Translations under genes and position numbers: made by a program
Assembly: GCA_005223125.1 (NCBI GenBank)
Contig: NJBH01000004.1
Span: forward strand, 36,995-100,994
Direction: 5' to 3'
Source: Promethearchaeota archaeon Loki_b32
GTDB taxonomy: Archaea; Asgardarchaeota; Lokiarchaeia; Sigyniarchaeales; SOKP01
Length of the DNA: 64,000 bases
Shown: piece by piece, positions 21,510 to 42,473 of the stretch
Numbering within the stretch: the stretch's first letter is position 1
Layout: each line of letters starts with the position of its first letter
Notes under the pieces: generated by a model
The model's input: the letters and a program-made list of their open reading frames with translations, nothing else
Database searches by the model: none
Told to the model about the DNA's origin: nothing

Positions 21510-21953
21510 TTAATGTTTGAGTGGCCCTAATTCTTTAATTTCGTTAGTAAATTCTGTTATTACCTCAGCAAACCTCTTCCCTTCAGAAGCACTCACCCAT
21601 TCTAAGCGTACTCGTTTAGGATCTACACCTAATTGTTTAATTAAAATTCTATGTAACCTTTCGAATCTTTCTTGTGTATATTCATTTCCAGTAATATAAT
21701 GACAATCACCTATATGACAGCCACTAACAAGGACTCCATCGGCACCATTCTTTAGAGCTTTTAAAACAAATGAAGGATCTACTCGCCCAGAACACATTAC
21801 CCTTATAATTCTGATATTAGGAGGATATTGAAACCGCGAAACTCCTGCTAGATCTGCTCCAGCATAACTGCACCAATTACAACAAAATACTAAAATGTTG
21901 GGTTCAAATCCCTCTTTTTTTGCTTTCTTTTTTGACTTTGACATGATTATCAC
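21510..21953 (-). CDS. mvhD: MvhD/HdrA-associated [2Fe-2S] delta subunit
   Basis: [41 protein letters not shown]. Confidence 0.93.
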
Positions 21954-21960
21954 CTAAGAG

Positions 21961-24900
21961 CTAATTCTTAACTTCCTCCTTTTCTAATAGGTAGGAATCA
22001 ATCATTGTAGAAATTTGATCAAAATCATAATGTTTTACCATTATAGCTCCAACGGGGCATGTTGCAGCACACGTTCCACAGCCTTTACATACAGCAGCGT
22101 TGATATTAGATTTTTTGACTTTAATACTTATATCCTCAAATTCTTTTATTATTTCTATGAGATCTATTGCTTTATAAGGACACACATCTTCACATTTACC
22201 ACATCCAATGCATTTTGCTTCTGAAACCTCCGCTACTAATCCAGATGTAGTAATTTTATCTGCGCTTAGAAATCTACTTGCTCTACCAGCAGCACCGTTA
22301 GCTTGTGAAATTGAATCTTGAATATTCTTTGGCCATTGAGCACATCCGCATAAGAAAATTCCATCTGTAGCAAAATCTAAAGGTCTTAATTTAACATGTG
22401 CTTCTAAGAAGAAACCATTTTTATCTAATGGAACTTTGAGCATCATTGCTAATTCTTTTAAGTTATCTGCTGGAATCATAGGCGTGGAAAGTATTACTAG
22501 ATCCGTCTCAAATTCAACATTATCTTTTAAATTAGTATCAAATACTTTTATCTGATATTTTTCAAGACTAACTTTTTTCTTTTTTACTTCTGGTAAAATT
22601 TCTAAATCATATCTTAGAAAAATTGCGTCTTTTCTGCGTTCACGATAATATTCTTCGAATTCTTTTTTAGCCATTTGTAAATCTCTGTAAATTACTACAA
22701 TTTCTAATTCAGGCTTCAATTCTTTTAATACTCTAACATTTTTTATTGAATTCGCGCAACATATATTGGAGCAGTAAGTTATTCCTTCATTTTGTCTAGC
22801 ATTTACACATAAAATTAATGTTATTCGATTAATCTGATCTAGCCAAGATTTATCCTTATTTTGCAATTTCTGTTCTAACTCCAATTGAGTAATTACATTC
22901 TTATTTTTATCATCATACTCAAAAAGACCTGATGGCTTAAATTCTTGGCCTCCAGTAGCAACTATTATTGTTCCAATTTTTACATCATGGATTTTGTTAT
23001 TTGAATCCTTTATCTCTACATCATAATTTCCAACATAACCTTTAGTATTTTTAATTTCACCATTTAGGAATACTTGAATATTGTTGTTTTTGTCTATTTT
23101 CTCTTTTAATTCACTTAATAATTCTAAGGCATTCTTATGAACTGGATACAAAACATTTAGAAATTTTAGGTTTCCACCTAACTCGCTTTCTTTTTCTACA
23201 ATAAAAGTTTTAAATCCTTGATTAGCAATATTTAGCGCTGCGGTCATACCAGAAACGCCCCCACCAATAATTAATGCTGTATGTGTAATGTCAACTTTAT
23301 CTTCCTTTTGTGGTTTTAATAATTTTGATTTAGCAACATGCATCCTAATTAAATCTATAGCTTTTTCTGTAGCTGCTTCTTTTTCTGCCATGTGAACCCA
23401 GGAACATTGATCTCGAATATTTACAAGCTCAAAAAGATATTTATTCAGACCTCCTTCTTGACATGTTTCTTGAAATAATGATTCATGTGTTCTAGGTGTA
23501 CAAGATGCTACGATAAATCTATTTAAATCATATTCAGCAATTAATTCCTTAATTCTGATTTGAGAGTCAGATGAACATGAATATAAATTTGCTTCACAAA
23601 CCACTACATTTGGGAGGTTTTTAACATATTCTACAACTCCAGGGACATCTACATAGTTTCCTATATTAATTCCACAATGACAAACCATTACACCTATTCT
23701 TGGTTCATCTGTAATTTTAATTTCTTTTTCCGGTACATCAAATACTTTCTCTTTCATTTGAGTATATTTGACGGAGTTTAATAAATCAGCAATTAGTGCT
23801 GCTACTCCACTAGCGTCTGCAACCGTCTCTGGGATATCCATTGGTCCTTGACAAAATCCACATAAGAAAACTCCATTTCTAGAAGACTTAAATTTATCAA
23901 AATACGATTTTTCTTGGAAAAAATTATACTTATCTAACTCAATTCCTAAAGAGTTTCCTAATTCCTTTACTCCTTTTGACGGAACTAAGGGTGATGCTAA
24001 AACAACCAAATTAGCACGAAAATCTTTAAATTCACCCGTCTTTAAATCTTCATAATGTATAAGTAAATCTTTAGTTTCGGGATCTTCTTTAATTGTACTT
24101 ATTTTTGATTGAAAATATTTTACTCCATATTCTTGTTGCGCTCTTTGTGTGAATTCATAGAAATTTTTACCATACGCACGAATATCATGCCGAAAAACAT
24201 AACATTCTGAATTATCCGAATGTTCTTGGGTTATTATTGCTTGTTTTGCCGTATAAGTGCAACAAACGCTGGAACAAAAAGGTACATTTTCATGAAAATC
24301 TCTTGAACCTGCACATTGAACAAAAGCGATAACCTCAGGTTCTTTAGCATCGCTTAATCTCATGACATGCCCATCAAATGGTCCAGATGCACATAATATC
24401 CTTTCATATTCAAGAGCACTTACAACATTTTCGTATCTATAACCCCATCTTGAAGATAAGTTTTCAGCAGGCATCTCAAAACCAGTTGCAACCACAACTG
24501 CTCCAACTTTAATGTCAAATTCTTCAGGTTTCTGTTCAAAATCTATTGCATCAGCAGTACAAACTTTTTTACATACTTGACATACTCCCTTCTTTAAATA
24601 TAAGCACAATTCTGGATCAATTAAGTAGATAGGAGGTACTGCTTGAGGAAAAGGAATATAAACTGATTTTCTTTTACCAATATTCATTTCAAAGGGATTT
24701 GGTACCAATATTTTAGGGCATTTATTAGCACAATCTCCACATCCTTTACATTTTGTTTCATCAACATATCGAGGTTTCTTTAGAATTTTAGCAGTAAAAT
24801 TACCAGGTTCACCATCAACTTGAAGAACTTCATGATAAGTCATTAATTCAATATTAGGATTCCGAAAGACTTCAACCATTTTAGGAGCTAAGATACATAA

Positions 24901-25062
24901 AGAACAATCTAAGGTTGGAAATGTTTTATCCAATTGAGCCATTCTTCCTCCAATTGAAGGTGTTTTTTCTACTAAATAAACTTTAAAGCCTAATTCGGTG
25001 AGATCAAGAGAAATTTGAATTCCTGCTATACCTCCTCCAATTACCAGAACTGAACCTTCCAT
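21961..25062 (-). CDS. hdrA: HdrA-like subunit, double length (FAD-Fd + HdrA core + second FAD-Fd)
   Basis: VIGGGIAGIQ, TLDCSLCILAPKMVE, CHCGINIG, SCTPRTHESLF, ferredoxin motifs CIGCGKCEDVCP and CKGCGTCAATCP. Confidence 0.95.
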   Translation of the reverse strand: MEGSVLVIGGGIAGIQISLDLTELGFKVYLVEKTPSIGGRMAQLDKTFPTLDCSLCILAPKMVEVFRNPNIELMTYHEVLQVDGEPGNFTAKILKKPRYVDETKCKGCGDCANKCPKILVPNPFEMNIGKRKSVYIPFPQAVPPIYLIDPELCLYLKKGVCQVCKKVCTADAIDFEQKPEEFDIKVGAVVVATGFEMPAENLSSRWGYRYENVVSALEYERILCASGPFDGHVMRLSDAKEPEVIAFVQCAGSRDFHENVPFCSSVCCTYTAKQAIITQEHSDNSECYVFRHDIRAYGKNFYEFTQRAQQEYGVKYFQSKISTIKEDPETKDLLIHYEDLKTGEFKDFRANLVVLASPLVPSKGVKELGNSLGIELDKYNFFQEKSYFDKFKSSRNGVFLCGFCQGPMDIPETVADASGVAALIADLLNSVKYTQMKEKVFDVPEKEIKITDEPRIGVMVCHCGINIGNYVDVPGVVEYVKNLPNVVVCEANLYSCSSDSQIRIKELIAEYDLNRFIVASCTPRTHESLFQETCQEGGLNKYLFELVNIRDQCSWVHMAEKEAATEKAIDLIRMHVAKSKLLKPQKEDKVDITHTALIIGGGVSGMTAALNIANQGFKTFIVEKESELGGNLKFLNVLYPVHKNALELLSELKEKIDKNNNIQVFLNGEIKNTKGYVGNYDVEIKDSNNKIHDVKIGTIIVATGGQEFKPSGLFEYDDKNKNVITQLELEQKLQNKDKSWLDQINRITLILCVNARQNEGITYCSNICCANSIKNVRVLKELKPELEIVVIYRDLQMAKKEFEEYYRERRKDAIFLRYDLEILPEVKKKKVSLEKYQIKVFDTNLKDNVEFETDLVILSTPMIPADNLKELAMMLKVPLDKNGFFLEAHVKLRPLDFATDGIFLCGCAQWPKNIQDSISQANGAAGRASRFLSADKITTSGLVAEVSEAKCIGCGKCEDVCPYKAIDLIEIIKEFEDISIKVKKSNINAAVCKGCGTCAATCPVGAIMVKHYDFDQISTMIDSYLLEKEEVKN

Positions 25063-26342
25063 TATTTTTCGCTCTCCGCTTTTTGATTAGAATCAACAAT
25101 AGATATTAAATTCACTAAAAATTCAGAAAAATCTACAATTTCTATTGAAGAGATATCCTCATAATCATTTTGTAAACACGTTAAATGTATTTTACATTTT
25201 GGGCATGAAGTGACCATTATCTCCCCTGCATCTTTTGCTTCTAAAAGCCTTTTATATCGCAATGCTTTTGAACGGTCATTACAATTCATCCAAGAACTCA
25301 CTCCACAACACAAAGCATCAGTTTTATTATGTGTCATTTCATTGAACTCATATCCTAATTTTTTTAAATGGGAAAAGATTTCGCGTACATTTTCTATTAT
25401 ATTACTATCTTTAGGTAAAAATCGACTTAGACGACATGGATCATGATAAGTGAATGGAATAGGTTGTTCTTTTTGAGAGGGGTTCTTAAACTCAATCTTA
25501 TTTGCTTTCCAATTTTCATAAATATAGTCAATTAAATGTTTAACAACAAATTTTTTATTAAAATCTTCAAAAATGTTTTGATAATCTACTTTAAATGTCC
25601 TATAACATTCAGCACAGGCAGTAATGATTGTTTTAACTCCAGTTTCTTCAATTCTTTTAATATTTCTCTTTGCCAAATTGATAAATTCTTTGAGTTTTCC
25701 TTGACCCCAATATAGGTCATGTCCACAACAGATTTCATCTTGAAGAACTACTATTGGTTCTTTTTCAATCTGATACAGTATTTTTAATGTGCTTTCTGCT
25801 ATAGAATCTGAATTTTCAAACTCAAAATTAAAATAGGGTAAGCACCCAACATAATACATAATATTTCCTTGTTTTGAAATTTCACATCCCTTAGGAACCC
25901 ATTCAAGAGATCTTTCTGGATTTATATGAGATTCACTCATTATTTCTGAAATAGTGGTATATACACCCTTATGAGCAACATAATCATCTGGGTTTTGACC
26001 ATAGGATTCTCGCATTTTATATTTAGCCATTCTTACAATATCTGCGAAATTTATTCCCTCTGGGCAATTTTGAAGACATGTATTACATGTTAAACAATCC
26101 CATAATACCCCACTCTCAATAATTTTATCTTCAAAACCCTCTAATATCATTTGGATTATCCTACTAGGTTCAAAAGTTTGAACCTTACTAAGTTGACAGA
26201 CACCACTACAACGAACACATTGATAACATCGATATAATAATTTCTTTATATCTGGTTCATAAATTTTTTCAAGATAAGAATCGATATCATCCTTGAGTTC
26301 TTTTGAATCATCTGTTTTTGCAGTTTCAGTAATATTTTTCAC
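25062..26342 (-). CDS. HdrC-HdrB fusion (HdrD-like), CCG-domain protein
   Basis: CYQCVRCSGVC, CLTCNTCLQNCP, YVGCLPYF...EICCGHD, CCGVSSWMNC. Confidence 0.93.
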   Translation of the reverse strand: MKNITETAKTDDSKELKDDIDSYLEKIYEPDIKKLLYRCYQCVRCSGVCQLSKVQTFEPSRIIQMILEGFEDKIIESGVLWDCLTCNTCLQNCPEGINFADIVRMAKYKMRESYGQNPDDYVAHKGVYTTISEIMSESHINPERSLEWVPKGCEISKQGNIMYYVGCLPYFNFEFENSDSIAESTLKILYQIEKEPIVVLQDEICCGHDLYWGQGKLKEFINLAKRNIKRIEETGVKTIITACAECYRTFKVDYQNIFEDFNKKFVVKHLIDYIYENWKANKIEFKNPSQKEQPIPFTYHDPCRLSRFLPKDSNIIENVREIFSHLKKLGYEFNEMTHNKTDALCCGVSSWMNCNDRSKALRYKRLLEAKDAGEIMVTSCPKCKIHLTCLQNDYEDISSIEIVDFSEFLVNLISIVDSNQKAESEK

Positions 26343-26493
26343 TTTATTTGATTAATGCAAATTTTAATAATTTGAGCCAATAATGATTTAAAAAAAAAAG
26401 GAAATAATTTATCTTTTCTGATTAGGTTTCATAATTCAATTGTCAAATGAGAAATTATAGATATGATAACGTTAGATTCTTTTTAATTTAAGT

Positions 26494-29400
26494 TTACGTT
26501 GCTAATGTCCTAATCATAGCATTAATTTGTTCAAAATCGTAATGTTTAATAGAAATTGCCCCAACTGGACAATTCACCGCACAAGTTCCACATCCTTTAC
26601 ATAAACCTGAATTTACAGAAGATTTTTTTATTGGTAGACTTACCTCTTCAAAATCTTTTAGGACGTTTGTAATTTCTATTGCGTTATAGGAACATGCTTC
26701 CTCACATGTTCCACATCCGATACACAAATCTGCATCTACTTCCGCTATTAATCCAGATGTAGTAATTTCCTCTGCGCTTAAAAACCTACATGCTCTTCCT
26801 GCTGCACCATTTCCTTGTGATATTGAATCTTGTATATTTTTTGGCCATTGAGCACATCCACACAAGAAGATCCCATCAGTAGCAAAATCTAATGGTCTTA
26901 ATTTAACATGAGCTTCTAGAAAAAAACCGTTTTTATCTAGAGGAACCTTGAGCATTTTTGCTAGCTCATCTAAATTGTCAGCTGGAATCATAGGTGTCGA
27001 TAATACTATTAAATCTGTATCAAATTTGATATTATCTTGTAAATTGGTATCAAAAACATTAATTTCAAACTTACTTGTTCCACTATTTTTCTCTTTAATT
27101 ACAGGTGGATCGTCTAAATCATATCTCAAAAAAATAGCATCTTTTCTTCGCTCACGATAATATCTTTCAAATTCTTTCTTTGCCATTTGAAGATCTCTAT
27201 AAAGAACTATTAATTTGAGGTCTTGCTTTAATTCTTTTAGGATGTTAATATTTTTTATAGCACTTTCACAACATATATTTGAGCAATAAGTTATCCCTTT
27301 TTCTTGTCTAGCATTAACACATAATAGTGTAGTAATATGATTAAGTTTGGTAAGCCATGAGTTATCTTCATCTTTTAATTTCTGTTCTAGTTGTAATTGC
27401 GTAATTACATTGTGGTTTGTATATTTATATTCAAAAAATTCATTAGGTTTTAATTCTTGTCCTCCAGTGGCAACAATAATAGTGCCAATTTTTAACTCAT
27501 GAATTTTTTTATCTGAATCGATAAGTGAAACATTATAATTACCAAGAAATCCATTAATATCTTTTAAATCAGAATTTGAAAAGATTTGAATGTTCTTATT
27601 CTGTTCAACCTTTTCTATGGTTTCGTTTAGTAAGATTGAAGCATCCTCTTGAGTAGGATATAGCATATTTAAGTATCTTAAATTTCCACCTAAATATTTC
27701 TCTTTTTCTATAAGATAAACAATAAATCCTTGATTAGCTATATTTAAAGCAGCAGTCATTCCGGATATTCCTCCGCCAATTACCATTGCAGTTTGAGTAA
27801 TTTTCAATTTCTTTTCTTCTTGTGATTTTAATAATCTTGATTTAGCAACACCCATTCTTATTAAATCAATTGCTTTTTCCGTAGCAAGCTCCTTTTCTGT
27901 CATATGTACCCATGAACATTGATCACGGATATTCACCATTTCAAATAAGTATTTATTTAATCCCGCTTCTTGACATGTCTCCTGGAATAAAGATTCGTGT
28001 GTTCTTGGCGTACAAGAAGCTACAATAAATCTATTTAAATTATATTCACCTATTACTTCTCTAATTCGTTCTTGAGAATCTGAACTACAAGAATACAAGT
28101 TATCTTCACAAAAAACTACATTAGGCAACGTTTTTATGTGTTCTATAACCTGAGGAATATCAATATATTTTCCAATATTAATACCACAATGACAGATAAG
28201 GACCCCAATTCTAGGTATATCTGTTTCTTTAACTATTTTTTCTGGTATCCTAATAACTTTTTCTTTTGTTTCAGTAAATTTAAAGGAATTAAGTAAAGTC
28301 GCTACTTGTGAAGCCACCCCACTAGCGTCAGCTACCGTTTCTGGTATATCCATTGGACCTTGACAAAAACCAACTAAAAAAATACCTTCTTTAGAGGATA
28401 AAGATTTATTATAATATGATTTCTCTTTAAAAAAATTATAATCATCCAACTCGATATCTAAAACTTTAGATAATTCTTTAGTTCCAGCTGAAGGGACAAG
28501 AGGTGTAGCTAATACTACAAGATTTGCATTAAAGTCCTTAAATTCACCCGTTTTTAGATCTTCATAATGAATTACTAAATCATTTGTTTCTGGATCTTCT
28601 TTTATTCTGCTAATTTTAGTTTGGAAATATTTTACTCCATATTCTTCCTGAGCTCTCTGGGTAAATTCATAAAAATTTTTACCGTAAGCTCTAACATCAT
28701 GCCTAAATACAAAACATTTTGAGTTTTCAGAATGTTCCCGAGTTATGATCGCTTCTTTGGCACTATACATACAACATACTGATGAACAATAGGGAATTCC
28801 CTCACGTAAATCCCTTGAGCCCGCACACTGAATAAATGCTATTTTTTCTGGCTCTTTCTCATCACTAGGTCGTAAAATTTGACCCTCAAATGGTCCAGAG
28901 GCCGATAATATTCGTTCATATTCTAAAGCACTTACCACATTTTTATAATTATAACCCCATCTTGAGGTTAACTCTTCTCCTAACACATCATATCCAGTAG
29001 CAACAACGAGAGCACCAACGTTTAAATTGATTTCTTGAGGTTTTTGTTCATAATCTATTGCTTCTGCCGTACAAACTTTCTCACAAACCCCGCATACTCC
29101 TTTAGTGAGTTTTAAGCATAACTCAGGGTCAATTAAATATACAGGAGGTACTGCTTGAAGAAATGGAATGTAAACAGATTTCCTTTTACCTAGATTCATA
29201 TCAAAGATATTAGGGAATTCAATCTTCGGACATTTAACTGCACAGTCACCACATCCTTTACATTTAGTCTCGTCAATATAACGAGGTTTCTTAAGGACTG
29301 TAACCACAAAATTTCCTGGCTTTCCAGAAACTTTTTGAACTTCATGATAAGTCATTAATTCAATGTTAGGATTTCTAAATACTTCTACCATTTTAGGGGC

Positions 29401-29574
29401 AAGAATACATAAACTGCAATCGTTTGTAGGAAAGGTTTTATCAAGTTGAGCCATTCTTCCTCCAATTGAAGGTGTCTTTTCTACTAAATAAACTTTAAAT
29501 CCCAATTCAGTTAAATCTAAAGAAGTTTGTATCCCTGCTATCCCACCACCAATAACTAACACTGATCCTTCCAT
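26494..29574 (-). CDS. hdrA: HdrA-like subunit, double length, close paralog of 21961..25062
   Basis: Same architecture and near-identical N-terminus (MEGSVLVIGGGIAGIQTSLDLTELGFKVYLVEKTPSIGGRMAQLDKTFPTNDCSLCILAPKMVEVFRNPNIELMTYHEV). Confidence 0.95.
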   Translation of the reverse strand: MEGSVLVIGGGIAGIQTSLDLTELGFKVYLVEKTPSIGGRMAQLDKTFPTNDCSLCILAPKMVEVFRNPNIELMTYHEVQKVSGKPGNFVVTVLKKPRYIDETKCKGCGDCAVKCPKIEFPNIFDMNLGKRKSVYIPFLQAVPPVYLIDPELCLKLTKGVCGVCEKVCTAEAIDYEQKPQEINLNVGALVVATGYDVLGEELTSRWGYNYKNVVSALEYERILSASGPFEGQILRPSDEKEPEKIAFIQCAGSRDLREGIPYCSSVCCMYSAKEAIITREHSENSKCFVFRHDVRAYGKNFYEFTQRAQEEYGVKYFQTKISRIKEDPETNDLVIHYEDLKTGEFKDFNANLVVLATPLVPSAGTKELSKVLDIELDDYNFFKEKSYYNKSLSSKEGIFLVGFCQGPMDIPETVADASGVASQVATLLNSFKFTETKEKVIRIPEKIVKETDIPRIGVLICHCGINIGKYIDIPQVIEHIKTLPNVVFCEDNLYSCSSDSQERIREVIGEYNLNRFIVASCTPRTHESLFQETCQEAGLNKYLFEMVNIRDQCSWVHMTEKELATEKAIDLIRMGVAKSRLLKSQEEKKLKITQTAMVIGGGISGMTAALNIANQGFIVYLIEKEKYLGGNLRYLNMLYPTQEDASILLNETIEKVEQNKNIQIFSNSDLKDINGFLGNYNVSLIDSDKKIHELKIGTIIVATGGQELKPNEFFEYKYTNHNVITQLQLEQKLKDEDNSWLTKLNHITTLLCVNARQEKGITYCSNICCESAIKNINILKELKQDLKLIVLYRDLQMAKKEFERYYRERRKDAIFLRYDLDDPPVIKEKNSGTSKFEINVFDTNLQDNIKFDTDLIVLSTPMIPADNLDELAKMLKVPLDKNGFFLEAHVKLRPLDFATDGIFLCGCAQWPKNIQDSISQGNGAAGRACRFLSAEEITTSGLIAEVDADLCIGCGTCEEACSYNAIEITNVLKDFEEVSLPIKKSSVNSGLCKGCGTCAVNCPVGAISIKHYDFEQINAMIRTLAT

Positions 29575-30060
29575 TATTTACCACTTTCTAATTTTTTTGA
29601 TAAAGATTTGTTTTCCACATCTTTTTATCCGTTGATTAAAAAATAAAGAAATGTAATTATATAAATATTTTTATGAAAAATGATCAAGGTCCGACACTTT
29701 TTATTTTTAAATGGTCGGATTTCATGCATCTTTCACGTTTATTCTTTCATAAACAATCATAATTCTTTTGAGATTTAATTTTATACGACATTATGGGTAT
29801 ATTTAGTTAAATTTAACTTTCTCAGCGATCAATATTCTACATTATGCATGTTTACGAAAAAAATTAAACCCGAAATATCATAAAGTTACAAAATAATAAA
29901 AAAAATCATTAATTCTGATAATTGTGTATGTCTTCCAAGAACTCTCATTTTAAAAGATTCATATAAAAGAAGATAAAATAATATAATATGATGAGCACAC
30001 AGGAAAGGAAGATAGTAGAATAAAAGGGAAAATAAAAAAGTAGCTTAATTAGATTCAGTC

Positions 30061-30345
30061 ATATAAAAAGATCCTTATACTTTTCTTTGATTTTTTTTAG
30101 AAGATCTTTTTTTTCCTTCTCATCCATTTCAGAAAGTTTTTCTCTTATTTTATGAATTTCCTCTAAAGATTTTTCTTCTTTTAATAAACCATTTCCTCTG
30201 GAGTACAAATAATCACATCTTTTTCTTTTAATCTTTCATTTATGTTTCTAACTTGAAATTTAGTTTTGAATTTAACTATGTGGGTTAAATTCCAACTAAC
30301 TATTGCATCTATTTTATATTTTGTTGCTATAGCAATATGGAGGGC
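30061..30345 (-). pseudogene. Truncated duplicate of the PIN toxin / small partner segment at 46465-46742
   Basis: Near-identical sequence ending at ...atagcaatatggagggca, replaced there by ccacgggggaggga. Confidence 0.85.
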
Positions 30346-30361
30346 ACCACGGGGGAGGGAG
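30342..30361. repeat. GC-rich 20-bp direct repeat, copy 1 (GGGCACCACGGGGGAGGGAG)
   Basis: Exact match to 31935-31954. Confidence 0.9.
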
Positions 30362-30562
30362 GGAACATTTTTTCTAAAAAAATCATTCTGTTCTCGTATT
30401 ATTCTTTGATCTTCCCCCTAATATTCCTTTTATTTGAATGATCTGGAATAAGGAGTGTGTTTAAAAATCCTATCAACTTTTTTTGAATAAATATTAAAGC
30501 AATAATTTTGATCAAAAATTATTTATAAATATATTTAGATATTTTTATTGAGGTAAATAATA

Positions 30563-30748
30563 ATGGCAACGGAAAAAGAAAATGTCATGCAAATGATAAA
30601 AGAACTCCCTGATGATATTACATTAGAGGATATCATGTATCATTTATATGCTAGGGAAAAGATCATCCGTGGTCTAAAGGATGCTAACGAAGGAAGAAAA
30701 GTATCGAACGAAAAAGCAAAAGAAGTTATTGAAAAATGGTTCGAATAG
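30563..30748 (+). CDS. Antitoxin of RelE/ParE-type TA module
   Basis: 61 aa, overlaps the downstream toxin start; helical antitoxin-like sequence. Confidence 0.75.
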   Translation: MATEKENVMQMIKELPDDITLEDIMYHLYAREKIIRGLKDANEGRKVSNEKAKEVIEKWFE

Positions 30749-31020
30749 AATGGACTGAACGCTCTTTAGAAGACTTAAATGAGATACATGATTATATAGC
30801 GCGGGATTCTAAAAGTTATGCAAACCTTTTTGTTAATAAGTTATATGATGCCGTTCAGAAACTAAAGGAGTTTCCGAATATAGGTAGAATTGTGCCGGAA
30901 GTCAATATTGCATCCGTAAGAGAAATCATTTTTCAAAATTATAGAATTATTTATAGAAATATGAATGATTATGTTGAAATCATTACAATATTTCATGGAA
31001 GTCGTTTGTTGAGATTATAA
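30736..31020 (+). CDS. RelE/ParE family toxin
   Basis: WTERSLEDLNEIHDYIARDS...FPNIGRIVPE...REIIFQNYRIIYR. Confidence 0.92.
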   Translation: MVRIEWTERSLEDLNEIHDYIARDSKSYANLFVNKLYDAVQKLKEFPNIGRIVPEVNIASVREIIFQNYRIIYRNMNDYVEIITIFHGSRLLRL

Positions 31021-31046
31021 GAATATAAATATTACAAAATTAATAA

Positions 31047-31066
31047 CGGGAGGATATTTTCTCCCG
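31047..31066 (+). terminator. Hairpin downstream of RelE-type toxin
   Basis: CGGGAG-gatatttt-CTCCCG perfect 6-bp stem 26 nt after the stop. Confidence 0.45.
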
Positions 31067-31156
31067 ATCCTGATCCCTGGAAGTAGGAAGAATACGATAA
31101 AATTAATCAGGCAGTAAGAGTTTTCCAAAAAAAAAATGCCAAGTTAAGTCTCAAAA

Positions 31157-31558
31157 CTACCAAGATCTTAGTTGTAAATTGAACATTTCTTTAAGTTTTT
31201 TATCATTAGAGTAAATAATGTTCGTATCGTGCTTTTTACACGTCATGGCGATGATTTCATCATGCGATTCGTGACTTTTAGCATTATTTAACATCAATTT
31301 AATGATTGTCATATTAAAATCATCGATAATGATATTTTCTGAGCTTTCCCATCGATTGAGAGCCTCCTTAAATGCGCTTGTTTTCCCAGCTTTTCTCATT
31401 TTCCAAAGCAATTCTGCGATTGCAATTGTAGGTAGGATTACTGTTATTTCTCCATTTATTACTTTTTTTTTCAATTGTTGGAGTATTGGGGGAATTTTTT
31501 GATAGTCATAATGAAAATAGAATAGAACCTGAGCACCAATTACTGCCTTTTCTATCAT
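31157..31558 (-). CDS. PIN-domain toxin (VapC-like)
   Basis: KMRKAGKTSAF..., SHDEIIAMTCKKHDTNIIYSNDKKLKEM. Confidence 0.85.
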   Translation of the reverse strand: MIEKAVIGAQVLFYFHYDYQKIPPILQQLKKKVINGEITVILPTIAIAELLWKMRKAGKTSAFKEALNRWESSENIIIDDFNMTIIKLMLNNAKSHESHDEIIAMTCKKHDTNIIYSNDKKLKEMFNLQLRSW

Positions 31559-31586
31559 TTTATATCAAGAACCATCTATTTTTTGA

Positions 31587-31862
31587 TTATTCCTCAATAG
31601 GAAATAACGATTTTTTTGCTTGATCTAACTCTTCCTCTGTAAATGGAGGTACATCTTCAAATAAATTATCTTCAATCTCAAGAGGATGTATTTTTTTTTT
31701 GATTAGAATAGTCTTATCGTCCTTCAATTCCATCTCAACCTCATTTTTATCTTCAATAGCTAACTTGTCTCTCCATTCTTTTGGTATTACAATCCTTCCA
31801 TTTGATGAGACTTTTTGAGTAATTTTTTCGGTCATTTGTATTTTCATTTTTCTAATTGTCAT
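31587..31862 (-). CDS. AbrB/MazE-type antitoxin (VapB-like)
   Basis: TQKVSSNGRIVIPKEWRDKLAI. Confidence 0.9.
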   Translation of the reverse strand: MTIRKMKIQMTEKITQKVSSNGRIVIPKEWRDKLAIEDKNEVEMELKDDKTILIKKKIHPLEIEDNLFEDVPPFTEEELDQAKKSLFPIEE

Positions 31863-31934
31863 TATAATATAGTAAATGACAGTTATTATATTTTTTCAAA
31901 ACTAGCAATAGCTAAGAACTTATTCTTTAGGAGG

Positions 31935-31954
31935 GGGCACCACGGGGGAGGGAG
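31935..31954. repeat. GC-rich 20-bp direct repeat, copy 2 (GGGCACCACGGGGGAGGGAG)
   Basis: Exact match to 30342-30361. Confidence 0.9.
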
Positions 31955-31990
31955 ATAATAGCGAAAGTAATAAATAAAAAATTTGTTATT

Positions 31991-32422
31991 TTAAATTGCT
32001 TGTAATGGACCTAGTTTTTTAATTTTATTAGTAAATTCAGTGATAACTTCAGCGAATCGTTTTCCTTCAGAGGCACTTACCCATTCAAGCCTAAATCTTT
32101 TATCAAGATTAAATATTTTTAAAACTTCTCGAAAACGTTCAAATCTATCTCTCGCAAACTCATTTCCTTTCAAGTAATGACAATCACCAATATGACATCC
32201 GGTTACAATAACTCCATCGATACCATCTTTAAATGCCTCTAAAATGAAAGCGGGGTCTACTCTACCAGAACACATTACACGTACTATTCTAATTGTGGGG
32301 GGGTATTGAAATCGTGAGACTCCAGCTAAATCTGCTCCAGCATAACTACACCAATTACAACAAAAACATAAGATATTTGGGTGAAATTCCTTATTTTTTA
32401 CTTTCTTTTCTTTACTTATCAT
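31991..32422 (-). CDS. mvhD: MvhD/HdrA-associated [2Fe-2S] delta subunit
   Basis: [36 protein letters not shown]. Confidence 0.93.
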   Translation of the reverse strand: MISKEKKVKNKEFHPNILCFCCNWCSYAGADLAGVSRFQYPPTIRIVRVMCSGRVDPAFILEAFKDGIDGVIVTGCHIGDCHYLKGNEFARDRFERFREVLKIFNLDKRFRLEWVSASEGKRFAEVITEFTNKIKKLGPLQAI

Positions 32423-32442
32423 TTTCTTTTATTAATTATAAT

Positions 32443-35400
32443 TTAACTTTGAACTAAAAGTGCAGAAATCATAGCGTGAATTTGCTCAAAACCAAAATGT
32501 TTAATAACTATTGTTGAGTTAGGGCATTGAGCACCACATGTACCACATCCTTTGCAAAGTGCAGGATTTATGTGGGATTTCAATATAGTCATTGTGAAAT
32601 CTTCGAACGTTCTTTCTTCCTCTATTAATTCTATAGCGTTAAATTGACAAACTTCAAGACAACTTCCACAACCAATGCAATTTTCTTCTATTACAACAGC
32701 TACAAGCCCAGATGTTACAAGTTTTTCAGCGCTTAAAATTTTTACTGCTTGGGCAGCAGCTCCATTGGATTGTGCTATTGATTCTCGAAGATCTTTAGGT
32801 GAATGTGCGCTCCCACATAAATATATACCATCTGTTGCAAAATCAATTGGTCTCAATTTAACATGAGCTTCCAAAAAGAATTTGTCCTCATTAAGTGGAA
32901 CTTTTAACATTTTTGCTAAATCTTCATTTTCTTTTATAGGTGCTACGAGACCTGTACTTAATACAATTAAATCAGGATTTATTTCAATTTCTCCTAAATC
33001 TGGATTGTTTACTATTATTTTTAATTGTTTATTTTTAATATTTAATTCTGGAGGTTTAGTTTCATCAAATCTTATGAAGATAACCTTTTTATCTCGTGCT
33101 AGGTTATAATATTTTTCTTTAAAACCATATGTCCTAATATCACGATAAAGAATCACTATTTCTATTTTAGGATTGATTTCTTTTGCTTTTAACGCATTTT
33201 TAATGGCTTCTGAACAACAGATTCTGCTACAATATGGGTGATCTTCATTTCTGGATCCAACGCATTGAATCATAACTATTGATTTCACTCCTTTTACTTT
33301 ATCTGTAGTAAAAAGATCTTTTTCAAATTCAGTTTGGGTTATAATTCTTTGGTCTTGTCCAAAATTGTATTCATTTGGTTGATATTCTTTTGCTCCAGTC
33401 GCTACAACTATTATTCCAAGTTCAAGATCAACACTTTTGTTATTATTTCCGTAGTTTATATTTGTGGAAAAATTTCCAATATACCCTGATATTGAATTGA
33501 TTTGAGCATTTTTAAATACTTGAATAAGTTGATTATTTTCAACATTTTTAATTAAATTTTTAAGATATTCCTGAATATTATCATTTTCAAGGGTCCGATA
33601 AAGATTTTTAGCAATTCCCCCTAGAGAATCTTCCTTTTCAATTAAGTAAACTTCATAACCTTGAGAAGCTAGATTTAATGCTGCTGACATTCCAGATACA
33701 CCACCACCTATAATCAAACCTTTATTTATTACAGCTATTTCTTGTTCCTGTAACGGGATTAATTGGCTAGCCTTTGCTACTGACATGCGCAATAAGTCTT
33801 TTGATTTTGCCGTTGCTTTTTCAGGTTCATGCATATGGACCCACGAACATTGATCTCGAATATTTACCATTTCAAATAGATATTTATTTAAACCAACTTC
33901 TCTTATTGTCGCTTGAAATAAAGCTTCATGAGTTCTTGGAGTACATGATGCAACAATCACTCTATTCAGTTTGTTATTTTCTATTTTTTCTTTAATATTA
34001 GTTTGAGTATCTGCTGAACAGGTATATAAATTATGTTCGGCATAAACAACATTGGGTAAAGTTTTAACATATTCTACTACATTAGGAACATCAACAACCC
34101 CACCAATATTTATTCCGCAGTGACATATAAATACTCCTATTCGCGGTGGTTGATCAGTTACATCCAATTCTTCGGGAAGTTCTTTCTTAGAGACTAATTT
34201 GTTTCTTGCTTCTGATAGAAGAACATTTACACATCCAGCAGCAGCACTAGCTTCAATAACAGTTTCTGGAATATCTTTAGGTGTTGCGAAAGACCCACAA
34301 ACATAAATCCCTGGTCTTGAAGTATCTACGGGAGTAAAAGTTTCAGTTTTACAAAACCCATATTCATTTAATTGGATATTTAATTTCTGTGCTAATTCTT
34401 TTGCTTGTTGATTAGGTTGCATTCCTACAGAAAGGACGACTAGATTAAAAAATTCTTCAATAATTTTTCCATTTCCTGTTTCATAATAAACTTTTAAATC
34501 TTTAGAGTCCGGAATTTCTTTAATAGAAGATATTCTGCGCCTGATATATCTTATTCCATACTCATCCTTTGCTCGTTCAATATATTTATCAAAATCTTTA
34601 CCATATGCTCTGATATCCATTGTAAAAATGGTTGGATCTATAATATTCATATGCTCTTTCGCTATAACTGCTTCTTTTGTAGTATACATACAACATACTG
34701 AAGAGCAATAATCATTACCCTGCTTTCTGTCCCTTGAACCAATACAATTTAAAAAGGCAATTTTTTTAGGAATAATTCCATCAGAAGGGCGAATTATTAA
34801 ACCTGAGTGTGGTCCACTAGCACTTAGAATACGCTCAAATTCAATACTAGTGATTACATTTAGATATTTACCATAGCCGAATTGCTTTAAAGGGGTAGGA
34901 TCGTATTCATCAAACCCTATTGCTAATACTACAGCACCTACATTAAGGTTAATTTCTTTATTTTGAAGTTCATAATCTATAGCTTTTACTTTACATATTC
35001 CCTTACATATTCCACAACCTATACATTTGTCTTTGTCAATTGAAAACACTAATGGAACTGCCTGTGGAAATTTTACGGATATTGCTGCTATATTAGAAAG
35101 TTTCTCATTAAAAAAATCTATAGCCTCTATTGGACATTGTTGAGCACACAAACCACATCCAGTACATTTATTTTGATCTAAACGAAGTGTTCTTTGAGTT
35201 AAATCAACCTTAAAATTACCAGGTTCACCTTCAATTTTTTCTATTGAAGAATTAATTAAAATATCGATATTTTCATGTCGTCCAGTTTCTACTAATTTCG
35301 GGGCAAGAATACATATTGCACAGTCATTAGTTGGAAATGTTTTATCTAATTGAGACATAACTCCACCAATACTGGTTGTTGATTCTGCGAGATAAACTTT

Positions 35401-35484
35401 ATAACCTGAATCTGCTAAATCTATAGAAGTTTGAATACCTGCAATTCCACCACCAATTACTAGAACAGCTCCGACTTTCTCCAT
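32443..35484 (-). CDS. hdrA: HdrA-like subunit, double length
   Basis: VIGGGIAGIQTSIDLADSGYKVYLAE, NDCAICILAPKLVE, CHCGINIGG, CTPRTHEALF, multiple ferredoxin motifs. Confidence 0.95.
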   Translation of the reverse strand: MEKVGAVLVIGGGIAGIQTSIDLADSGYKVYLAESTTSIGGVMSQLDKTFPTNDCAICILAPKLVETGRHENIDILINSSIEKIEGEPGNFKVDLTQRTLRLDQNKCTGCGLCAQQCPIEAIDFFNEKLSNIAAISVKFPQAVPLVFSIDKDKCIGCGICKGICKVKAIDYELQNKEINLNVGAVVLAIGFDEYDPTPLKQFGYGKYLNVITSIEFERILSASGPHSGLIIRPSDGIIPKKIAFLNCIGSRDRKQGNDYCSSVCCMYTTKEAVIAKEHMNIIDPTIFTMDIRAYGKDFDKYIERAKDEYGIRYIRRRISSIKEIPDSKDLKVYYETGNGKIIEEFFNLVVLSVGMQPNQQAKELAQKLNIQLNEYGFCKTETFTPVDTSRPGIYVCGSFATPKDIPETVIEASAAAGCVNVLLSEARNKLVSKKELPEELDVTDQPPRIGVFICHCGINIGGVVDVPNVVEYVKTLPNVVYAEHNLYTCSADTQTNIKEKIENNKLNRVIVASCTPRTHEALFQATIREVGLNKYLFEMVNIRDQCSWVHMHEPEKATAKSKDLLRMSVAKASQLIPLQEQEIAVINKGLIIGGGVSGMSAALNLASQGYEVYLIEKEDSLGGIAKNLYRTLENDNIQEYLKNLIKNVENNQLIQVFKNAQINSISGYIGNFSTNINYGNNNKSVDLELGIIVVATGAKEYQPNEYNFGQDQRIITQTEFEKDLFTTDKVKGVKSIVMIQCVGSRNEDHPYCSRICCSEAIKNALKAKEINPKIEIVILYRDIRTYGFKEKYYNLARDKKVIFIRFDETKPPELNIKNKQLKIIVNNPDLGEIEINPDLIVLSTGLVAPIKENEDLAKMLKVPLNEDKFFLEAHVKLRPIDFATDGIYLCGSAHSPKDLRESIAQSNGAAAQAVKILSAEKLVTSGLVAVVIEENCIGCGSCLEVCQFNAIELIEEERTFEDFTMTILKSHINPALCKGCGTCGAQCPNSTIVIKHFGFEQIHAMISALLVQS

Positions 35485-36761
35485 TACTTTCCCTCAACAT
35501 TTTTATTGGGTTCTATTATTTTTATCAGATCTACTAAAAACTCTGAAAAATCTAAAATTTCAATAGAAGAAAAGTCTTCATAGTCTTTTTTTAGACAATT
35601 TAGATGCATGCGACATTTTGGACAAGATGTAATCATTTTGGTTCCAACAGCTTTAGCTTCTAAAAGACGTTTATATCGCAATGCTTTAGACCGCTCATTA
35701 CAATTCATCCAAGAATTTACTCCACAACAATAAGAATTTTCTTTATTGTGTTCCATTTCTTTAAAATTATAACCAATAATTTTCAAATGCTTGAAGATTT
35801 CTCGGACTTCCTCAATTATTTTATTATCCTTTGGTAAAAATCTACTTAACCTACAAGGGTCATGATAAGTAAAAGGAATAACCTCATCAGATTTATTAGG
35901 ATTTTTAAATAGAACTTTTCCCTGCTTCCATTTATCAAAAATATATTCAATTATGTGTTTAACTTCAAATTTTTTATTAAACTCTTCAAACAGTTTTGGA
36001 TAATCAATTTTAAAGGTTCTATAACATTCAGCACAAGCAGTAACAATTGTTGTAGCTCCCGTTTCTTCAAACCGTTTAACATTTTTTTTTGCTAATTCAA
36101 TAAAGCTTTCGAATTTTGCTTGACCCCAATATAAATCGTGTCCACAGCATATCTCATCTTTTAGAATCACTACCGGATCTTTTTCTAATTGACAAATAAT
36201 CTTAAGTGTGCTTTCTGCTATAGATAATGAGTCTTCAAATTCATAGTTAAAAAAAGGTAAACATCCGACATAATATAAAATATTTCCCTTATCTGAAGTT
36301 TTACATCCTTTTGGAATCCAATCTAAAGGTCTCTCAATTTCCATATTGTCTTGACTCATCATTTCTGACATCAAAGGATAAATACCTTTATGAGCAATAG
36401 AACGATCAGGATTTTGAATATCTTTTAATCGCATTTTATATCTAGCAATTCTGACAATATCAGCAAAATTAATATCTTTAGGGCAATGTTCTAGGCAACT
36501 ATTACACATTAAACAATCCCATAATACCTGACTATTAATTATCTCATCTTCAAAGCCTTCTAATATCATTTGAATAATTCTACTAGGTGTAAATTTTTGA
36601 ACCTTACTGATTTGACATACACCCGAGCAACGGGCACATTGATAACACTTTTTTAGCAAATTAATTAAATCTGGTTCATAAATCTTTCTTAAGTATAAAT
36701 TAGAATCATTTTCTTCTTGTTTTACCTTTTTAAGATTTTCGATTTCAGTTATGAGATTCAC
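35484..36761 (-). CDS. HdrC-HdrB fusion (HdrD-like)
   Basis: CYQCARCSGVC, CLMCNSCLEHCP, EICCGHDLYWGQ, CCGVNSWMNC. Confidence 0.93.
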   Translation of the reverse strand: MNLITEIENLKKVKQEENDSNLYLRKIYEPDLINLLKKCYQCARCSGVCQISKVQKFTPSRIIQMILEGFEDEIINSQVLWDCLMCNSCLEHCPKDINFADIVRIARYKMRLKDIQNPDRSIAHKGIYPLMSEMMSQDNMEIERPLDWIPKGCKTSDKGNILYYVGCLPFFNYEFEDSLSIAESTLKIICQLEKDPVVILKDEICCGHDLYWGQAKFESFIELAKKNVKRFEETGATTIVTACAECYRTFKIDYPKLFEEFNKKFEVKHIIEYIFDKWKQGKVLFKNPNKSDEVIPFTYHDPCRLSRFLPKDNKIIEEVREIFKHLKIIGYNFKEMEHNKENSYCCGVNSWMNCNERSKALRYKRLLEAKAVGTKMITSCPKCRMHLNCLKKDYEDFSSIEILDFSEFLVDLIKIIEPNKNVEGK

Positions 36762-37947: not shown

Positions 37948-39391
37948 TCCTTTCTAATAAGGGTTGCCCTGGTTTAACCTCCTTTAAGCTTTTAGATTCT
38001 ATTAAACCTGCTTTAATTGCCTCTTTATAGATTTTTTCACCTATTTTTGTTCTTGTTATTACTGATGACCAGCCACTAGGTGAACCTATTGATCCTACAG
38101 AAATATCAGCAAAATCGGCTGTTAAATCTTCACAATAATGACAATTATGGCGAGCATAGGACTTAACTTCTTTTAAGGGTACTCTTAGGTCCTCACCAGA
38201 ATCTAAGTATATAATGAATTTACCTCCACTTATGTCCATTTTTGTTACTTTATTAAAATCTTTTTGAAATTGTTCTTTAATTAAGTTAAGTACGCCCTCG
38301 TAAGGAAAAGATTCCATGCAGAAAAGTCCTATTCTATATTTGATATTTTTGAAAAATGGTAATCCACTCGGAAACAAAGTACCCTTTTCAATAGCATTCA
38401 TTATACATGGAGTACCTACAACAGCTATTTTGTCATATTTCTTGGCTTTATCTATAATAGCTAAAGTAGATGCATTTGCATATTTAGTTCCCCCAGTCTT
38501 ATATAAATCTTTCAAATCATCCACAATGACGGGTTCAGGCTTCCATTTCTCTTCTGAGTGCTGTACTGCTACAATTGCGTCAACCAGTTTATTTTCTAAT
38601 AAGTATTGTAAAATGGATGTAACAACACCACCATCTTGTCTTACTTTTTTAATATCATCCTTAGTGGTGCTGGCAGAATAAGTATTGATATAACCATTAA
38701 TTTTTTCTGAAAATTTTAAAGATTTATCAAGCTTATTTATACTTCTGCCCGCTTGCTCAATTGAAAATGATTTCGGGCAAACAGAATAACATATGCCGCA
38801 TTTCATACAAGTTTCATCATCGATCTCCAAAATATCTGCTGTTACTGTAATTGCGTTTACAGGACAAATTGATGAGCACCAACCACATTGACAGCATACT
38901 TCAGAATCAAACACAATAGAAACAGGTTCAAAAAAATGTTCAATGAAGTCATCAGGCAGATCTTTAACTTGATATCTATAGAAATATTCTTTTTCCTCGA
39001 CTTTTTTTTCTTCTCCCTTTATTTTCTTGATAACAGTTTTAGTCTTTATTTCGATATGTTCTTCAATATATCCCTGTTCTTTAAGATAAATTACATCACG
39101 AATTACATTTTCTCTAGGAAACTCTTTTAGAATTTTTGCAATTTCCTCTAAAAATAATGGTTCCTTACCTTTTAATGATTCTAACACTAATTTACGCTCT
39201 GTTTCAGCATCGATCATAGCATCCAGAATTTCATAAAACTCCTCCTCAGAAAGTTTTCCTACACTTAGAATATCATTCTTTGCTTCGAAGAAAGCTCGAA
39301 TTTGAAAATTCTCAACTGCTTTATAGGTTGCATCCATTAAATTTTTTGGAGATACTCCATTGAAATTTACATTGTTTGAAATTTGAACCAT
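37895..39391 (-). CDS. FrhB-like protein with N-terminal winged-helix-like segment and 2[4Fe-4S] ferredoxin
   Basis: N-terminal helical/wHTH-like region; CCQCGWCSSICPVNAIT, CMKCGICYSVCPKSF, RQDGGVVTSIL, VGTPCIMNA. Confidence 0.88.
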   Translation of the reverse strand: MVQISNNVNFNGVSPKNLMDATYKAVENFQIRAFFEAKNDILSVGKLSEEEFYEILDAMIDAETERKLVLESLKGKEPLFLEEIAKILKEFPRENVIRDVIYLKEQGYIEEHIEIKTKTVIKKIKGEEKKVEEKEYFYRYQVKDLPDDFIEHFFEPVSIVFDSEVCCQCGWCSSICPVNAITVTADILEIDDETCMKCGICYSVCPKSFSIEQAGRSINKLDKSLKFSEKINGYINTYSASTTKDDIKKVRQDGGVVTSILQYLLENKLVDAIVAVQHSEEKWKPEPVIVDDLKDLYKTGGTKYANASTLAIIDKAKKYDKIAVVGTPCIMNAIEKGTLFPSGLPFFKNIKYRIGLFCMESFPYEGVLNLIKEQFQKDFNKVTKMDISGGKFIIYLDSGEDLRVPLKEVKSYARHNCHYCEDLTADFADISVGSIGSPSGWSSVITRTKIGEKIYKEAIKAGLIESKSLKEVKPGQPLLERIAGIKRKNCKPIKLEKE

Positions 39392-39454
39392 ATTTACATC
39401 CTTTTGGATTACATTTTTTAAAAAATTTTATTTTTACTTGAATACTATTTAAAA

Positions 39455-39525
39455 ACCCCTTCCCTTGCGAGGTTGGTCTTCTTATAACTAGAATTTGTTT
39501 ATAAGAATCATTCCGTAGGGGTAGT
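39455..39525 (-). promoter_or_regulatory. Candidate SECIS element (eukaryote-like core) overlapping/following the vhuD stop
   Basis: Minus strand: CGGA-ATGA-TTCTTATAA(A)C-AAATTCTA-GTTATAAGAA-GA-CC, a 10-bp helix with one bulged A, AAA starting the apical loop, AUGA/GA kink-turn-like core; outer ACCCCT/AGGGGT can pair. Confidence 0.6.
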
Positions 39526-39969
39526 TATAACTTGTTTTGCTTCAACTTTCGATTTATCATCTACTAAGTTAAGTGGACTTGGTCCGGCTTTGCTAACCTT
39601 TTTGTAAGCGTCCTCAACAGATTCGACAAATTTCCCAGCATCTCCTCCACTTAACCAATACATATTTATTCTTTGATTTCCGAAACCTCTGGATTCTAAG
39701 ATCCTATTTGCTAAGTCTACATGTCTTTGAGCAGTGAAATTTCCGTTTTTAAATTGACACTCATTAGGTCGTCAACCAACAATCATGACACCATCAGCTC
39801 CCGCGCGAATGCTATATAAAATGTGCTTAATGTCAATTCTTCCAGTACATCTTACTTTGATAATTTTTACTGCAGGAGTGTATTTCATTCGAGAAACCCC
39901 AGCTAAATCCGCCGCGCTATATCCTCATTTTATGCAAGCAAAAACGATTAAATTATAAGTATTTTCCAT
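39508..39969 (-). CDS. vhuD: Selenocysteine-containing MvhD/VhuD with two in-frame UGA
   Basis: Translation [125 protein letters not shown]...; TGAs at 39925-39927 and 39772-39774 align with MvhD cysteines. Confidence 0.9.
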
Positions 39970-39975
39970 GTTTTT

Positions 39976-42014
39976 TTAACCACCTCCTAAAAGACCATCA
40001 ATTTCAGCGAATAATTGGTGATCTCGATAATATCTGATGTCAATTGCTTGAGTAGGACAACAAGTAGCACAAATACCGCAACCGTCACAATTTATTTCAT
40101 CAATAAACGCTCCGATATCTTCTTCAATTCTAATAGCATTTTTAGGACATTCTTTTTCACATCGTCTACATGAAATGCAGAATTCACTATCTACTTCAGC
40201 AGTAATAAGTTCAATATCAATTTCTCCTGGTGATGTTACTTCAGCAACTTTACTAGCCGCAGCTCTAGCTTGAGAAACGGAGTAAGAAATATTTTTCGGT
40301 CCTTGAGCAAATCCAGCAATAAAAATTCCTTTTGCCTTTGTTTCTTGTGGCATTAAACCGAAATGTGATTCTGTAAGAAAGCCATATATATTAGTATCAA
40401 GATTTAATACCTTTACAATCTGTTCAGTACCTTTTGAAGGAAGTGCTGCTGTAGATAAAACGACTAAATCAGCATCAATTTTTACAATCTTATCTGTTAA
40501 TGACGAATATACACGAACTTTCACGTTTTTGGTTTCGGGATCTTCAGAGATTTCACCGACTTTTCCACGAATCATTCTGATACCTGCATCTTTAGCTCGT
40601 TCGTAGTATTCTTCAAATCCTTTTTCAGGAGTTCTTATGTCAATATAGCAAATAGTAATGTTCGCATCGGGAAATTCTTCGAGCAATAAGCGTCCATTTT
40701 TTAGAGCAAGCATACAGCATACACCACTACAATAGGTTCGTTCAGTTTCTCGACTTCCTACGCATTGTATAAATACAATTTCTTTGGGTTGTTTATTATC
40801 TGAAAGCCGGTGTACATGTCCTTCAAGTGGTCCATTCGGAGCTAGTATTCGTTCTAATTGAACTTGAGTTATAACATTTTCGAATTCTCCATACCCATAT
40901 TCACCAAAAGGTTCATGTATGTCCCAACCAGTTGTTATAATGATCGTACCAACTTCGATATTGACTTCCATAGGTACTTGACTAAAATCAATGGCATCTA
41001 ATTCACAGGCATCTACACATGAGAAACATTCAACACAAGCATCTCGGTCAATATCATATAAAAACGGTACTGCTTGACCAAATGGTATATCAATTGCTCT
41101 TCGAGCTCCTAAATGTTCATCGAAATAATTACTTACATATACGGGGCAAACCTCACTGCATGCACCACACCCATTGCATTCGTCTGTTGTATATCGCGGT
41201 TTTTTTTCAATTGTTACGTTATAATTACCAACATAACCCTCGATTTTTTTGACTTCACTATAGGTTAATAATTCAATGTTCTCATTTCTGTTGATATTTA
41301 GCATAACAGGACCGCAGATTCATATTGCACAATCATCAGTGGGAAAAGTTCTGTCCAATTGAGCCATTCGTCCTCCGATTGTCGTTTTCTGTTCGACTAA
41401 GTAAACTTTTATACCTTGGTTGGCAAGATCGAGCGCGGCATTCATTCCAGCTATACCCCCACCGACGATTAAAGTGGCCTTCTTAACTGGAACAGTCTTA
41501 ATAGGAATGGGTTCTAAAAGTTTAGCTCTTTCAATACCGCTTTTTACTAATGTTTTTGCTTTTTCTGTAGCCTCTTCTTTACTATCCGTGCACCAATTTT
41601 GCATTGAGCAGTAAATCTGCTTAAAAAAAATCTGCAATGTTCACGGACGTTAACCATCTGAAAGTAATAAGGATTTAAATCTGTTTTAGCAATTGTACCC
41701 CGGTAAATCACTTCATGCGTACGCGGTGTTCAAGCTGATGCCACAATCCTATTTAAACCTTTTTCCTTGATATCTTCTATTATCTCATTTTGAGCGTTAT
41801 CAGTTCATAGAAAAGCGTTTTTCTTAGAAATTACAATATCATCAAAATTTTTGGTTGCAAACTCTACGAGCTCGTCGCAATCAACCTTAGAACGGATATT
41901 AATCCCTCATTTGCCAAAAACAAGGAAATCATACTTTTTTTGGCAGGCATAATATCCAATCCTTAGCTGTTCATTATCTTTATTAATCTTCGTATCATTC
42001 CATTGACTATTCAT
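39976..42014 (-). CDS. hdrA: Selenocysteine-containing HdrA with four in-frame UGA (plus one apparent homopolymer frameshift)
   Basis: MNSQWNDTKINKDNEQLRIGYYACQKKYDFLVFGKUGINIRSK...NAFLUTDNAQNEI...RIVASAUTPRTHE...FQMVNVREHC...(frameshift in A8 at 41623-41630)...TFPTDDCAIUICGPVMLNINRNENIELL...; TGAs at 41907-41909, 41805-41807, 41730-41732, 41320-41322; GAGGG RBS upstream of ATG at 42014. Confidence 0.88.
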
Positions 42015-42473
42015 TTTTTTCCCTCTTTCTTTTTTTCCACCTCTTATTTTTGTGACAATTCAACACTTATTTATGCGCAATAGTAAACATACTTACTGAT
42101 ATATACAGTAGTGTAAAAATCTCTATGATAGCATAAATTTTGTAAATTAATATTATATCATTTAGATTTTATTCTTTTTAATATTTTTATTTCTTACTAT
42201 TTATCTATGTAAGCAAATTTTAGGATTGTGATTATAGATTCAAACCAAATTTTATCTTTATGAAAATTTAAGAACAAGAAATTTCGATAAGCATTAGGAA
42301 AAAAAGGGAGAATTGATTATTTTTGCACATTTTAATGAGAAAATTTGAGTTCATTATAAAAAAGAAAATATAAATTTAAATAAATTATAAGAAAAAAAAA
42401 TTTAAATAAAAATCAGATAATAATCTTACCATTAGAAATTTCATTGAATAAAATGTCTTAAAGATGTGAGAAT

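Follow-up and report, generated by a model that had tools for sequence, protein, structure and literature searches.

A Lokiarchaeal hdrA gene with four in-frame UGA codons and two short insertions of bulge-helix-bulge intron geometry

Results

An hdrA-vhuD gene pair followed by a SECIS element

The window, by which we mean the whole stretch of 64,000 nt that was analysed, carries on its minus strand a type I hdrA gene (39976..42014), which comprises 657 codons once two insertions are removed, contains four in-frame UGA codons and ends with UAA. As described in the first-pass annotation, all four UGA codons lie at positions where the window's three intact HdrA paralogues have Cys. These paralogues are large all-Cys proteins (about 1010-1030 aa), encoded at 21510-36761 in tandem arrays with FlpD and HdrBC-like genes. 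Directly after hdrA, and overlooked in that annotation, which had recognised HdrA itself, comes a vhuD/mvhD/frhD gene (FlpD, PF02662; 39508..39969, minus strand) with two UGA codons of its own, at 39927-39925 and 39774-39772; its product has the motif VGURPNEC. A eukaryote-like type I SECIS element (39454..39523, minus strand) for the hdrA-vhuD transcript follows, with AUGA at 39511-39508, a 9-bp upper stem and GA at 39478-39477.

Pfam Fer4 and FAD domains were found in the hdrA product, to which solved HdrA chains gave full-length matches, and its domains lie in the order of HdrA: an N-terminal CxC domain, a FAD/TrxR domain with an inserted ferredoxin, and a C-terminal ferredoxin. The gene had been described as a single frame broken by UGA alone. 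This does not hold, as the raw minus-strand frame is not continuous: a 35-nt insertion shifts it near 41631, after ...NVREHC. UAG and UAA codons follow soon after in the first frame, and the larger downstream part lies in another frame.

Two insertions in hdrA have BHB geometry

Insertions were defined relative to same-genus orthologues of 88-93% protein identity, among about 45 orthologues in all. The first (30 nt, 41910..41939, minus strand) has the sequence AAAAAGTATGATTTCCTTGTTTTTGGCAAA, lies between TGCCAA and TGAGGG in phase 0, immediately before the first UGA, and is absent from the orthologues. Its central helix is TGCC:GGCA, with bulges AA/A and AA/T (slash, cut position) and an inner helix of 7 bp; the flanking exons are also paired in the minimum free energy (MFE) fold. 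The second (35 nt, 41597..41631, minus strand; ATTTTTTTTAAGCAGATTTACTGCTCAATGCAAAA) is the one that breaks the frame, and lies between TTGCAG and TTGGTGC. It is surplus relative to the orthologues, 33 of which are concordant on this point, and folds with a central helix TTGC:GCAA, bulges AG/A and AA/T, and an internal hairpin. Both insertions thus have the features of a bulge-helix-bulge (BHB) motif, namely a 4-bp central helix made entirely of Watson-Crick pairs, 3-nt bulges, and cuts between nucleotides 2 and 3. Four Watson-Crick central pairs occurred in 1.3-1.5% of random insertions, and four such pairs together with an inner helix of at least 5 bp in 0.02%. MFE folds do not always give the full BHB on their own.

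Taking out both insertions gives exactly the conserved CQUG at the first site and EHCSWC at the second, and the spliced reading frame then has four internal stop codons, all of them UGA. The earlier gene model was therefore right about a four-UGA HdrA and missed the two introns, hence the real gene structure. Likewise, its reading of the first site as FGKUGINI correctly placed a UGA at a Cys site, but the alignment was partly insertion-derived; the correct one is ACQUGINI against CHCGINI.

Introns were found in only two of the ~45 hdrA orthologues. The other case, G034, whose contig matches MAG CSMAG_1226, has a different 30-nt BHB insertion just past the first UGA (helix GTAT:ATAC), and its removal gives the family sequence UGINIRS. 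Intron 1 of the window gene is in frame, and its translation as a 10-residue insert is possible. Group I or group II introns were rejected: the inserts are 30-35 nt long, versus hundreds of nt for a catalytic RNA fold, and gave no Rfam match. In another orthologue (L053), an insert of 10 residues close to the N-terminus was not counted as an intron, as it has no BHB. Judged by their geometry and by the orthologues, both hdrA insertions are BHB introns, and we infer that they are spliced at the RNA level.

BHB introns in other genes, and the splicing endonuclease

Similar insertions were found elsewhere in the genus. On the contig of the window, outside the window itself, a LURP-one-related (LOR) gene (L266, G000:C36, 188361-189122, plus strand) contains a 30-nt BHB intron. 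Of 17 congeners, eight have an intron in this LOR-domain gene, four of them at position A and a different four at position B, and the rest have none; the four central pairs are present in all eight introns. At position A, G027 differs from G000/G029 in both members of three inner pairs, a compensatory pattern. In the other genera of the family nearly all LOR orthologues among the matches listed are stop-free. The bin108 chromosome record (G029) has a 30-nt BHB intron in nadE (L225, G029:C1, about 2599625-2599654), with the NAD_synthase domain spanning the junction. In G034, an AAA ATPase gene (L224, G034:C26, 16566-16597, minus strand) is interrupted by a frame-breaking 32-nt BHB intron; the window genome and two congeners have intact copies of this gene.

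The tRNA-Sec gene (L081, G000:C57, around 28480-28640, minus strand), which adjoins the SepSecS gene, also has two BHB introns. An Rfam tRNA-Sec search of the genome returned ordinary tRNAs alone because the introns hid the gene, which was located with the tRNA-Sec sequence of a congener. In the window genome and several congeners, one intron lies in the D-loop and the other in the T-loop; G020 and G029 have the D-loop intron alone, and nine other congeners have none. In a tRNA-Gly(UCC) gene (L001), what looks like a non-canonical insertion lies close to the variable arm.

Two subunits of a splicing endonuclease are encoded in the genome, one with the catalytic residues, whose nearest solved relative is 3p1z/3ajv, and one without the His. 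The pair fits the heteromeric type tied to crenarchaeal pre-mRNA splicing (PMC2738675), into which the subunits would assemble.

Hardly any further BHB-type insertions were seen when about 64-75 kb of coding DNA from the window contig was aligned; BHB introns are therefore sparse. An ab initio BHB scan gave 23 matches in total versus 16-24 in off-geometry controls, and 15 strong matches versus 5-10, about half, in the controls. With this high chance background, single uncorroborated matches are weak, and matches were kept only if backed by orthologues or by a protein domain across the junction.

These data bear on the possibility that the four-Sec HdrA is real and both insertions are assembly or sequencing errors, the true gene being intron-less. 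The window assembly is a MAG, and most congeners have no insertions in hdrA. Errors would hardly account, however, for the exact BHB geometry, for the recurrence of BHB introns at homologous positions in MAGs that were assembled independently and in the single-contig chromosome record of bin108 (G029), or for the scarcity of similar insertions in the remainder of the aligned coding DNA, and we regard this explanation as unlikely.

The spliced gene is under purifying constraint

The dN/dS of spliced hdrA was 0.04-0.05 relative to six congeners, equal to the value between intact congeners, and third-position changes predominated in each inter-UGA segment of this comparison. By this test hdrA is no pseudogene. 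A gene disrupted by the 35-nt insertion would explain the broken raw frame and the restriction of hdrA insertions to two MAGs; yet the spliced gene behaves like intact orthologue pairs, there is no further lesion, all four UGA codons and the SECIS are retained, and the insertion can be removed precisely at the BHB. A pseudogene is thus very improbable.

Ribosomal frameshifting could in principle bypass the frame change, as a run of eight T lies at the junction and the downstream part is open as an ORF (41320-41637). However, about 12 extra residues would then be translated within the invariant EHCSWC stretch, and intron 1, the LOR, nadE and AAA insertions and the common BHB geometry would be left unexplained. 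We give frameshifting still less credit than a pseudogene.

UGA codons at four Cys positions of HdrA

HdrA residues are numbered from RIGYY, which places the UGA codons at sites 9, 43, 68 and 193. The first (41907..41909, minus strand as for all four; ACQ-U-GINI) corresponds to Cys in the paralogues and is UGA in all named Loki orthologues covering the site. The second (41805..41807, AFL-U-TDN) is UGA or Cys in orthologues, with no other residue, and the third (41730..41732, ASA-U-TPRTHE) is invariably UGA in the group. The fourth (41320..41322, DCAI-U-ICGP) is the classical Sec site of HdrA, is UGA also in Chloroflexi HdrA, and appears as X in PDB 9sfi. In a comparison of 43 named Loki MAGs, UGA was found without exception at sites 9, 68 and 193 where these were covered, and site 43 was UGA or Cys. 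The Chloroflexi homologues (L181, L183, L185 and others) have a single UGA, at site 193 alone (DCSTUILG).

Of 65 genomes of the family, 49 carry the four-Sec orthologous group; a search of 18 further genomes of the class gave no match to it at E <= 1e-240. Additional UGA codons were seen in L142, L149 and L164 (CFSU, NCDGUGIC): two MAGs have a fifth at a ferredoxin-type Cys, and one MAG carries a UGA in the C-terminal ferredoxin. The genome of the window encodes two further Sec-HdrA proteins (L007, L008), with two and three UGA codons at subsets of the sites of the four-Sec HdrA.

In the archaeal and bacterial sequences that were compared, sites 7, 9, 43 and 68 invariably hold Cys or Sec, whereas C19, C100 and C103 are variable. 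The N-terminal [4Fe-4S] cluster is therefore probably ligated by C7, U9, U43 and U68. At three of these four invariant N-terminal positions, the putative ligand sites, Sec (U9, U43, U68) would stand in place of Cys.

SECIS element and selenocysteine machinery

In an alignment of 25 SECIS sequences, 96% of cells were paired and two-sided changes occurred at 6 of the 9 pairs, a level reached by 0 of 500 shuffles. An Rfam search of 39300-42300 gave no match, and no Rfam SECIS model was among the results. The terminator UGA of vhuD (39510-39508) also supplies the last three nucleotides of AUGA in the SECIS core. In two orthologues (L035 and L038) vhuD ends earlier; the UGA of the core would therefore be kept for structure.

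A search for Sec machinery in the same genome found SepSecS, tRNA-Sec, an EFSec-like GTPase, with a match 0.25 bit below the curated cut-off, and two SelD, each with a UGA. Next to SepSecS, at L124:16304-16993 (minus strand), lies a gene matching NCBIfam NF045535, a 'putative selenocysteine system protein' of Asgard archaea.

The exchange of UGA with Cys only, in 43 named Loki orthologues, the machinery and the covarying SECIS strongly support the proposal of a multi-Sec HdrA, and we infer that UGA is read as Sec in both hdrA and vhuD. Neither of the findings that the first-pass annotation had named as contradicting the proposal, a genome lacking the machinery or orthologues with other residues or other stops at the four sites, was obtained. 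Random decay, which the first-pass annotation had considered very unlikely, has nothing in its favour except the UGA stops themselves and can practically be discounted, given identical UGA sites in tens of independent MAGs, the low dN/dS, the dominance of third-position changes, and the SECIS and machinery just described.

Discussion

The best explanation of the locus, to which we assign a probability of about 0.88 from comparative sequence evidence, is a functional hdrA-vhuD selenoprotein operon, in which a spliced four-UGA HdrA would be followed by a two-UGA vhuD and served by one SECIS. Both BHB motifs of the hdrA pre-mRNA would be cut by the heteromeric tRNA-splicing endonuclease, and the exons would then be joined by a ligase. 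Guided by the single SECIS 3' of vhuD, tRNA-Sec and EFSec would then decode the six UGA codons as Sec. From the invariance of C7/U9/U43/U68, the N-terminal [4Fe-4S] cluster of HdrA would have three selenolate ligands and one thiolate ligand. This cluster may lie on the electron path from a donor enzyme to the [2Fe-2S] cluster of VhuD and to the bifurcating FAD, and the selenolate ligands may shift its potential and speed electron entry. Since tRNA-Sec itself has two BHB introns, the splicing endonuclease would be needed twice for HdrA production.

The first Loki selenoproteins were reportedly described by Mariotti et al. in 2016. Asgard Sec-HdrA and Sec-FrhD/VhuD with a shared eSECIS-like element have already been published, a point that had been overlooked in the first annotation of this DNA (Huang et al. 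2024, PMC11227280; Sun et al. 2021, PMC9723677). As far as the accessible parts of these two papers go, the present locus resembles those systems in its one-strand hdrA-frhD pair, UGA/Cys exchange, AUGA_GA SECIS 3' of frhD and machinery. In contrast, those parts were not found to describe the replacement by Sec of three N-terminal cluster-type Cys at once, or introns. Prokaryotic selenoproteins with 2-3 Sec are an exception, forming a small subset (2026 review, PMC13188914). The Sec-HdrA of methanogens (PDB 9sfi) shares site 4 with the window protein (X in the deposited sequence), matches it over its full length and has the same N-terminal, FAD and ferredoxin domains, but it has Cys at the three N-terminal sites. 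N-terminal HdrA clusters have been placed along the route that leads to the MvhD-type [2Fe-2S] cluster (PMC12350162).

In the canonical BHB cut by archaeal splicing endonucleases, two 3-nt bulges flank a 4-bp helix (PMC6379350). Among archaeal tRNA introns at non-canonical positions are BHB introns, about 30 nt long, of the D-loop and T-loop; such introns were seen here too, although the Loki introns sit in tRNA-Sec, unlike those of PMC6379350. The accessible text of PMC9723677 attributes 'unusual insertions and deletions' to some Loki tRNA-Sec, which were not found termed introns there. No report of BHB pre-mRNA introns in Asgard archaea was found in the literature searched, a search that was not exhaustive.

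For protein genes, Watanabe is said to have described in 2002 a BHB intron in the crenarchaeal cbf5 pre-mRNA. As of 2009, the cbf5 intron was the sole experimentally confirmed intron of an archaeal protein gene (Yokobori 2009, PMC2738675). The Asgard introns resemble it in being short, in protein genes, and located at a BHB suited to a heteromeric splicing endonuclease, by which they would be excised. They differ in that their BHB is canonical, rather than relaxed as in cbf5, and in being present in several metabolic genes, lineage-restricted and polymorphic. It seems likely to us, with less assurance than for the operon itself, that short BHB introns have recently spread in this lineage of Lokiarchaea into protein genes and tRNA-Sec, so that expression of the six-UGA hdrA-vhuD pair would depend on pre-mRNA splicing of the tRNA type.

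Protein is expected from hdrA only with both splicing of the mRNA and re-reading of four stop codons, and one SECIS serving six UGA codons across two genes would be a demanding recoding task. Frame-broken genes in such MAGs get mis-called as pseudogenes or frameshifts, which calls for caution. If the proposed ligands are correct, a single [4Fe-4S] cluster with three selenolate ligands in an electron-bifurcating HdrA would be unusual among natural cofactors. With polymorphic BHB introns in several of their protein genes, Asgard archaea, the group nearest to eukaryotes, would offer a direct test of intron gain.
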